Positions 20,313 through 50,535 of a DNA stretch of 64,000 nucleotides are shown here, piece after piece. The notes beneath the pieces were generated by a model. The model was not told the origin of the DNA. It searched no databases and was given only the letters and a program-made list of their open reading frames with translations. The stretch comes from Halorubrum trapanicum (GTDB lineage: Archaea; Halobacteriota; Halobacteria; Halobacteriales; Haloferacaceae), in the NCBI RefSeq assembly GCF_017873555.1, contig NZ_JAGGKE010000008.1, forward strand, positions 1 to 64,000, in the 5' to 3' direction. Position numbers and translations under genes: made by a program. Positions within the stretch are counted from its first letter, which is position 1; the number at the start of each line of letters is the position of its first letter.

Positions 20313-20502
20313 ACTCGCGTGTCGTTCCGGCGGGCTTGTGTACCCGTCGGTCCCGAGAAGACAGATACGCAGTTCCTGCGCGCACCTGTTTCAAATCTTC
20401 AGTCGTCGGTTTGTAAATGGACTCTGACGGGTCCACAGCGACCACCTCCAAAGCCCCAGCCGCCCGGTTGGACGCAACTGACTCTCGAACAGCGGAGAAC
20501 GC
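20313..20502. other. Intergenic: arsA upstream region and outer repeat module
   Basis: Holds the arsA promoter region and, on the plus strand, a TATA-like TTTGTAAAT (20410-20418). A first AAGCCCCAGCC module (~20448-20465) resembles the start of the structured repeat that begins near 20503. No coding sequence is supported. Confidence 0.5.
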
Positions 20503-20758
20503 CTCCGAAGCCCCAACTGCGAGGACGCCGGACGCTCGTTGCGCTCCTCACTCGGTCGCTTCGCTCCCTCGTTTCGGTGCTTACGTCGCCTCCGGCGTCC
20601 TCGCAGTTGCCCCTTTGAGTCCCACCCCGACCGGAACCGCACCGCGGCCTCACACCTCCCCAGCCTCGCCGCTCACGCCCTGCGGGCGTTCGCGGCGTCC
20701 CTCGCGCGTGCGACTCGCGGCCGCCGGTGGCGGCCGCTCGCAGGCACGCGCCACCGCA
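20503..20758 (+). repeat. Structured dispersed repeat, copy A
   Basis: Complete copy. It opens with CTCCGAAGCCCCAACTG. A 19-bp perfect stem pairs 20514-20532 with 20591-20609 around a 58-nt pyrimidine-rich loop. Then come CCCCTTTGAGTCCCACCCCG and CCTCACACCTCCCC, followed by hairpin 2 (20667-20672/20692-20697 and 20675-20680/20684-20689 with a TC/TC internal loop). After the linker GTCCCTCGCGCGTGC, hairpin 3 has inner stem 20717-20725/20729-20737 and outer stem 20704-20711/20744-20751. It ends in GGCACGCGCCACCGCA. It lies between the 3' end of aroA and the start of arsA. Stem sequences differ from copy B but pairing is retained. Confidence 0.85.
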
Positions 20759-23302: not shown

Positions 23303-24093
23303 ACGGTCTCCCCGCCCTCGTCCGTCTGCTCCGACCCGCCGTAGCGCTCGGTCAGGTAGTCGATGATGTAATCGACGGTCTCGGGGTCGTAGCTCCAGAA
23401 CCCGTAGAACTCTCCCGGGGCGCGCTCCTCGGCGAGCAGCGCGCACTTCGCGTCCTCGTACCCGCCGCCGTCGTACGCGACGAACCACGTCTCGCGGATC
23501 TCCGCGGTCTCGCCGACGTGGACGGCGTAGTGTTCGACGTCGGGCGCGTCCCCCTCGTCGGCGGCGTACGCGTGGACGTCGAGCCGCTCCTTCTCGCCGA
23601 GTAAGTCGTAGGTGTCGATCTCGCCGGTGAGCACGTCGAGCGTCTGGAATCCCGCGTGGAGCTCCCCGTCGCCGACCCGCCACGCCCGGTCCTCGATCTC
23701 GCGGGACGCGGCGACCATGTCCTCGCGCGAGTAGGAGGTGAACATCGTCTCGTCGAGGTGGTCTAACACCGGCTTTCCGACGCGTCCGCCGCTACCCCCC
23801 TCGGCGATCGGTTCGTCCCCCTCCGACGCACCTCTCCCGTCTCCCGACGATCCCGTCCCGTCCTCGCCGCGCCGAGGCAACAGCTCGTCGACCGTCACGG
23901 CCGTGACGAACTCACCGTCCCGCGCCAGCACGGCGAACTCCTTCGGTCCGGAGGCCGTCTGGTCGCCGACGATCCGGACGTTGCGGTCGGCGAAGTGTTC
24001 CCGAAGCTCGTCCGTCACCGCCGGGTCGGCGTTGAACACGGTCAACGTGGCCTCGTGGGCTTCCACGCCAGCGATGAGCTCGATGAGGGACAT
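23299..24093 (-). CDS. DICT sensory domain protein
   Basis: 264 residues. The N-terminal segment [18 protein letters not shown] is followed by a disordered Gly/Ser/Glu linker (~75-105) and a domain from ~110 with [29 protein letters not shown]. The C-terminal third carries [22 protein letters not shown] and ends [21 protein letters not shown]. This arrangement matches haloarchaeal DICT proteins, predicted ligand sensors related to diguanylate-cyclase-associated domains. No output domain is present. A TTATA element about 29 bp upstream supports ATG 24093. Confidence 0.75.
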
Positions 24094-24252
24094 CCCTTGT
24101 CGGACCCACAGCAGCGGGGTATAAGGTCGTTTCTGCTGTCCGGACCGCGAGGGTTCCTCGGAACCGGAACTCGCGAGGAGCCACGACGAGGGGTCGTCTG
24201 GGGAGCGCCGCGAAGCGTGAAGCTATTTGCGCCGCGCCCCCCGAGTGAGGGT

Positions 24253-50245: not shown

Positions 50246-50254
50246 ATTATAAAC
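50246..50254 (+). promoter_or_regulatory. TATA box in front of structured repeat copy B
   Basis: ATTATAAAC centred at 50250 would place a transcription start at about 50276, which coincides with the first conserved bases (CGAAGCCCCAG) of the repeat. There is no coding gene on this strand downstream, so the box most likely drives an RNA. Confidence 0.55.
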
Positions 50255-50274
50255 GGCTGATCGACACGAACACA

Positions 50275-50535
50275 CCGAAGCCCCAGCCGCGAGGCGGACA
50301 GACGCTCGCTGCGCTCCTCACTCGATCGCTCACTTCGTTCGCTCTCCCGTTCGGTGCTGGCGTCGCCTCTGTCCGCCTCGCGGCTGCCCCTTCGAGTCCC
50401 GCCCCGGCCGCACAGCGACCGCACCTCACGCCTCCCCAACCTCGCGGTTCGCGCTCTCCGAGCGCTCACCGCGTCCCTCGCGCGTGCTGTCTCGCGGCCG
50501 CCGATGGCGGCCGCTCGCAGGCACGCGCCACCGCA
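50275..50535 (+). repeat. Structured dispersed repeat, copy B (possible ncRNA)
   Basis: Complete copy. A 19-bp perfect stem pairs 50284-50302 with 50368-50386 around a 65-nt loop. Then come CCCCTTCGAGTCCCGCCCCG and CCTCACGCCTCCCCAACCTCG. Hairpin 2 pairs 50443-50448/50468-50473 and 50451-50456/50460-50465 with a TC/TC internal loop and 3-nt loop. After the linker GTCCCTCGCGCGTGC, hairpin 3 has inner stem 50494-50502/50506-50514 and outer stem 50480-50487/50521-50528, ending CACCGCA. It sits between the convergent 3' ends of the presenilin and PUA genes. Confidence 0.88.

Follow-up and report, generated by a model that had tools for sequence, protein, structure and literature searches.

The intergenic spacer studied here lies between two convergent genes in a 64,000-nucleotide stretch of the Halorubrum trapanicum genome (positions 1 to 64,000 of contig NZ_JAGGKE010000008.1, hereafter the window). 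The upstream plus-strand gene encodes an SPP/presenilin-type membrane protease (PF06550; 49186–50220, start predicted) and ends 47 nt ahead of the core of a repeated element, copy B, which was delimited at 50268–50535 by homology search and profile and has the plus orientation of its family; the family model itself matches 50269–50534 in a profile search. The downstream minus-strand gene (51080–50571), assigned by domain match to a protein with TGT_C2 and PUA domains, has its stop codon 35–36 nt beyond copy B, in agreement with the original prediction that the element ends shortly before that stop. No gene overlapping copy B was predicted by a simple codon-score gene script. A predicted TATA-like box, ATTATAAAC, on the plus strand at 50246–50254, starting 32 nt ahead of AAGCCCC, and the opening motif CGAAGCCCCAG from 50276 are both present as claimed. 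The window also holds copy A of the family at 20497–20758, located by homology search and profile, together with part of a third copy, whose right end, at 1–103, is truncated by the window's left edge and was recognized by a profile match to model positions 150–265.

Within copy B, hairpin P1 occupies 50276–50394, with arms at 50276–50305 and 50365–50394 and an apex at 50306–50364 carrying TC steps that read as GA on the minus strand. The P1–P2 linker (50395–50442), which contains the near-invariant CTCACGCCTCCCCAACCTCG, is followed by hairpin P2 (50443–50473), differing in sequence and length from copy to copy, and by hairpin P3 (50480–50528, arms 50480–50502 and 50506–50528). On the plus strand, the order throughout the family is GAACACCTCCAAAGCCCCAG, P1, CTGCCCCTTTGAGTCCCACCC, a variable CCGCA-like stretch, CCTCACGCCTCCCCAGCCTCG, P2, TCCCTCGC, P3, and ACCGCA, and the linkers between the three hairpins are nearly invariant.

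Fold and folding strand of the element

Folded as RNA, copy B gives three hairpins from either strand, with z scores of −6.0 (plus) and −5.3 (minus); as DNA, the scores are −6.0 and −6.2, and both strands exceed their own shuffles by about the same margin. Predicted folding energies are −157.8 kcal/mol for the minus strand versus −132.6 for the plus strand as RNA, and −91.5 versus −80.7 as DNA. Covariation was assessed in 37 copies from the H. trapanicum genome (L015 and L046 were left out), with P2 kept outside the consensus structure because its length varies. Standard pairs fill 97.1% of the cells of the 44 consensus pairs, a percentage that is partly circular because the structure was derived from the same alignment. 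The two-sided changes are the stronger argument for the fold, as they occur in 26 of the 44 pairs compared with a shuffle mean of 14.9 (0 of 500 shuffles reach 26) and with 3–6 in slid controls. Folding, covariation, and the family profile thus bear out the predicted conserved unit, about 260 nt long and comprising three stem-loops.

At the apex of P1, covarying two-base steps are interleaved with almost unvarying TC.TC mismatches, and all five apex TC dinucleotides are retained in 201 of 220 copies. Palindrome repair was considered as the sole cause of the covariation and rejected, because arms made palindromic by repair alone would lose both these TC.TC steps and the GNA loops. P1 is flipped in 11 of the 139 module hits in the H. 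trapanicum genome, at nine loci by profile counts.

The tandem TC mismatches of the plus strand are GA.GA on the minus strand, where 178 of 226 copies have a closed GNA loop (C-GNA-G, variable N). GA pairs in tandem adopt the sheared geometry, and purine mismatches typify both RNA and DNA. Given tandem GA.GA under GNA loops, the minus strand was therefore read as the likely folding strand. The available part of one report describes GNA loops as giving unusually stable DNA mini-hairpins, such as d(GCGAAGC) (PMC4686876); the family resembles these in its minus-strand C-GNA-G loops with variable N and differs in scale, since those hairpins are a physical motif of short DNA molecules and are not known as an element spread across a genome. 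The minus strand also has conserved G-tracts, noted as a candidate G-quadruplex.

A count of 27 pairs in 230 copies (5,955 cells) gave 5,754 Watson-Crick, 44 G.T, and 100 A.C pairs as read on the plus strand. Because A.C on the plus strand is G.U on the minus strand, the excess of A.C leans to the minus strand. A single pair supplies 30 of the 100 A.C cells, and without it A.C to G.T is 70:44 (nominal p = 0.019, relatedness uncorrected); a stricter count of the P1 stem showed no lean, with 17 A.C and 16 G.T in the genus and 4 and 5, respectively, in other genera. The wobble count therefore favors the minus strand only weakly, and the folded molecule may be either DNA or RNA.

Copy number, placement, and age of the family

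In a DNA search of the H. trapanicum genome, copy B had at least 44 matches (40 of 228 candidates scored), and 39 other places match it at E ≤ 2.2e-44. A sequence-only profile, R1, built from 37 copies, gave at least 180 matches at E ≤ 0.01 (150 candidates scored). From the listed R1 matches, 127 were kept after second pieces, opposite-strand doubles, and the weakest matches were dropped, and these merge into ~126 chromosomal loci. None of the 139 module hits overlaps a predicted gene. Among 135 hits with both neighbors, a count that a few copies, split into two pieces, enter twice, 53 are in convergent spacers, 31 between two plus-strand genes, 30 between two minus-strand genes, and 21 in divergent spacers; gene starts used here are rough because the codon-score script was trained on few window genes. 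Convergent spacers are enriched relative to the 5 of 42 window gene gaps longer than 20 nt (Fisher p = 0.0007), and downstream minus-strand genes stop at a median of 47 nt from the element. As the copies adjoin many unrelated genes in both orientations (31 versus 30), a regulator special to the convergent pair at copy B, as had been suggested, is unlikely.

Six low-GC contigs (C12, C13, C15, C17, C18, and C21) carry 0 of the 126 loci, compared with ~15.9 expected. GC is 0.55–0.60 in their first 20 kb versus 0.70 at element loci; C22 (GC 0.68), the last contig in the GC measurement, likewise carries no locus. Similarity to haloarchaeal plasmids extends over parts of C12, C13, and C17. Plasmid records gave two partial family matches, phage records none, and viral contigs no match to one exact 20-base family pattern. 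Spacing between loci has a coefficient of variation of 0.85 (n = 111 gaps). Two arrangements were considered and rejected. For a replichore strand bias, all seven scored copies on contig C1 share one strand, yet three one-contig genomes are mixed (40 scored candidates per genome, judged by eye); for an autonomous unit bounded by two copies, the translations of the enclosed genes look by eye like housekeeping genes and not transposases. Where two copies stand close together on either side of one or two genes, their order is −+, left ends facing, in 11 of 16 cases (nominal p = 0.0003, with at least one pair orthologous to another), at loci including L015, L031, L036, L038, L045, L056, L145, L147, L181, and others.

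At the copy B site, the element is present in the same orientation in 13 of 13 species in which both flanking genes remain neighbors. The downstream PUA-domain gene occurs in 52 of 52 genus genomes, and of 30 loci of this gene compared, 22 have the element at the 3′ end, 7 lack it, and one has it ~0.9 kb away. Aligning 14 orthologous copies of B shows nearly identical linkers and differing stems. These comparisons mark copy B as an old, vertically kept member of the family. In two genomes, at G022:C1:2471362-2471867 and G041:C99:7914-8409, the PUA-domain gene lies in two frames or pieces, unlike in other genomes.

The cores within the H. trapanicum genome are 71–92% alike (mean 79.7%, 676 compared pairs), indicating no recent burst, and the 38 cores compared include no near-identical copies; L046 was excluded from this comparison because C/G runs make up its right half. 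Both flanking genes are shared by 43 copy pairs (184 copies, first loci; a few of the pairs are two pieces of one copy). Three genomes (G026, G018, and G028) have short spacers without the element at the two sites compared, so that no copy there is essential. For the family as a whole, conservation may reflect purifying selection on single copies or homogenization by gene conversion.

The family was matched in all 52 genus genomes searched and, at 1e-5 with strict filters, in 165 of the 292 genomes of a class-wide sample, representing 50 of its 77 genera. This distribution is patchy, 127 of the 292 sampled genomes having no match at 1e-5; outside the genus, with 35 listed genus members subtracted, 130 of 257 match. 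Twenty better-matching genomes that we chose yield between 1 and 50 matches apiece, and many of these approach full length. Low-complexity hairpins may contribute false matches among the weakest, and 6 of 189 loci, all from a pattern scan, have no profile match at 1e-5. Diverged copies occur in other haloarchaeal genera and families, and those of the twenty genomes retain GAAAGCCCC, GGCCCCTTTCAGTCCCACCC, CCTCCCCAGCC, and CGCGCGCC, while their stems differ. A description of the element was not found in the literature searched, which covered few subscription journals, and the element's sequence strings had no match in the searched paper texts. The main text of the RepRanger paper (PMC12306157) makes no mention of Halorubrum, Halobacteri-, Haloferax, or Haloarcula, and no such repeat is described in the available part of the H. 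lacusprofundi genome paper (PMC5018182).

TATA boxes and candidate transcription

Allowing at most one mismatch, TTTATAAA occurs at −50 to −31 from AAGCCCC in 21 of 39 H. trapanicum copies, the place at which the copy B box stands, and at +10 to +19 past the last CGCGCC in 16 of 39, against a background of 0.07 per 160 nt at the same loci. The larger set of 139 module hits has 62 left and 53 right boxes; in 74 full copies from other species of the genus, each end bears the box in 32 and both ends do in 18. On the minus strand the right box reads YTTATAAAT, the same as the left box, and by eye the two point inward. The right box is found beside downstream genes of either orientation, and the left box is part of a 57/66-bp unit that in some copies repeats the element's first bases upstream. 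A conserved promoter, as expected of an independent small RNA gene, is absent upstream in all 34 copies from other genera, and one of these 34 has a downstream box. Among copy B orthologues with readable upstream sequence, only ~6 of 13 keep a clear TATA by eye.

The original prediction took the left box to start a plus-strand RNA and regarded a discrete noncoding RNA as the simplest reading, while missing the inward box at the right end, the upstream repeat unit, how many copies there are, and the fact that copy B has kept its position. Its interpretation is supported in part, in that the TATA recurs across the genus with a spacing that fits a start at the P1 foot, although the core occurs without it elsewhere. 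The absence of the box in other genera and in several copy B orthologues that retain the core indicates that a plus-strand start is not the conserved feature, and the matching inward box at the right end means that one strand is not singled out. Together with the minus-strand mismatches and loops, these results argue against a discrete noncoding RNA as the simplest reading. A plus-strand RNA from the copy B TATA is possible, and we take the inward boxes, with any transcription from them, as a genus-level extra that would lie outside the core function.

Rival readings, known repeat families, and variant copies

The family was compared with two known types of repeat. The palindrome-associated transposable elements (PATEs) of Haloquadratum walsbyi (PMC3119063) are, in the part of that report available, likewise haloarchaeal, short, noncoding, and palindromic, have no terminal inverted repeats, and exist as tens to hundreds of diverged copies. 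They differ in having near-terminal palindromes common to IS605-type transposons and strain-specific insertions, whereas this family has no profile match in the surroundings of the 10 genus Y1 loci searched, so that a link to IS605 was not seen there, and has a fixed three-hairpin plan, invariant linkers, old shared positions, and class-wide spread. The bacterial REP/BIME/REPIN elements with RAYT transposases, as far as the sources available describe them, resemble the family in their many intergenic, chromosomal, palindromic copies in both orientations and their long persistence; the intergenic, palindromic, and many-copy traits are all found here. REP units are 20–40 bp, in contrast to ~260 nt and three hairpins. 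A Y1 transposase (PF01797) scores over the cut-off in 41 of 52 genus genomes and is absent from 11, all of which carry the family, so that a dependence on RAYT is not borne out; the part of PMC6006769 available reports only the IS200 subclass among archaeal Y1 proteins. The best reading is that the family is REP-like in behavior yet no member of REP.

Our leading interpretation, tentative and with a little less than an even chance of being right, is that the haloarchaeal chromosomal family of structured interspersed repeats to which copy B belongs works as a site in the chromosome in the manner of REP/BIME. Selection would act on one strand in its folded state, most probably the minus strand with its tandem GA.GA under C-GNA-G loops, whether the fold forms in single-stranded DNA, in extruded DNA, or in RNA. 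A putative host factor would recognize the fold and the linkers, and the element would act as a chromosome site, not as the gene of one RNA; some Halorubrum copies with inward boxes at both ends may be transcribed. A fold with fixed linkers, long kept in place, nearly absent from plasmids, and independent of TATA fits a chromosomal site better than a single RNA that regulates two genes. Counting against this interpretation are the patchiness of the distribution, the sites that are empty, and the inversion of P1 in 11 of 139 module hits, and any present host function of the family is putative. A bolder version, which we regard as rather improbable, is a chromosome-maintenance site about every 20 kb, kept off plasmids, in which a purine-rich strand with a G-rich linker would fold into very stable GNA/tandem-GA hairpins, and where, for instance, a factor of replication, repair, or the nucleoid might land on DNA that is single-stranded or extruded; this would be an archaeal counterpart of REP/BIME that arose without Y1 transposases.

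Against this chromosomal site stand three other explanations. Multi-copy, discrete structured RNAs, each started by the left box at GAACACC or CGAAG at the P1 foot and running through P3, or in a variant transcribed from the minus strand, would account for the fixed places of the box in the genus and its geometry, for the structure and covariation, and for the slight preference for G.U on the minus strand, and the purine mismatches suit RNA as well as DNA. This explanation is doubtful given the boxes lacking in other genera and in several copy B orthologues, the presence of boxes at both ends, and the little strand asymmetry of the wobbles; by our estimate from archaeal spacing, the right-end box would start a minus-strand RNA inside P3. 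Rfam 15 gave no match at the gathering score within the 64-kb window, and a permissive search (E ≤ 1) gave one chance-level match (E = 0.19) outside copy B. A non-autonomous mobile element (PATE-, MITE-, or SINE-like), whose structure would be kept for the sake of its own movement and which would have little host function now, agrees with the dispersal in many copies, the variation in copy number between genera (1 to 50 in the 20 chosen genomes), the repeated end unit upstream, and the empty sites that exist between species (one genome per species compared). A mobile origin is likely for the spread of the family. As an account of the family today, we judge mobility unlikely, as the element is rare on plasmids and was not found in phage records, its cores lack near-identical copies and hold old shared positions, and, besides the 11 genomes lacking a Y1 transposase, the family profile had no match at E ≤ 1 around 10 Y1 loci of the genus. 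Of MITE features, there is only the short inward TTATAAAT at both ends, confined to the genus; no terminal inverted repeat could be paired with a transposase, and flanks at empty sites are too diverged for a target duplication to be read.

A terminator, 3′-UTR, or insulator element at convergent gene ends would explain the enrichment in convergent spacers and the nearby minus-strand stops. It is nevertheless highly improbable, since 82 of the 135 hits lie outside convergent spacers, 21 of them divergent, tandem spacers have no orientation bias, convergent orthologous pairs occur without the element at empty sites, and no T-run follows the copy B hairpins by eye. If the chromosomal-site interpretation is true, ~1% of the chromosome (~126 copies of ~260 bp in 3.08 Mb) would be an unannotated, structured element, strongly conserved and shared by many genera of one archaeal class. 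It would provide ready sites for testing archaeal chromosome organization and account for many unexplained intergenic spacers, and the question of whether REP elements are selfish or useful would become testable in a second domain of life.

Several copies depart from the common plan. The H. trapanicum loci with P1 inverted as a unit in an otherwise normal element are L398, L408, L409, L412, L416, L422, L423, L428, and L430; P1 is also inverted within an otherwise normal element in L167, L337, and L194, the last a copy B orthologue in which the inversion was noted at the P1 apex. In L046 (G000 C20, ~23950–24160), the right half consists almost wholly of C/G runs, which probably stem from faulty assembly or base calling. 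L323 (G033) is a shortened form with the P3 foot fused to the element's left end, which looks like an internal deletion, and L269 (G253, another genus) has modules that consist of P1 alone, two of which face each other.
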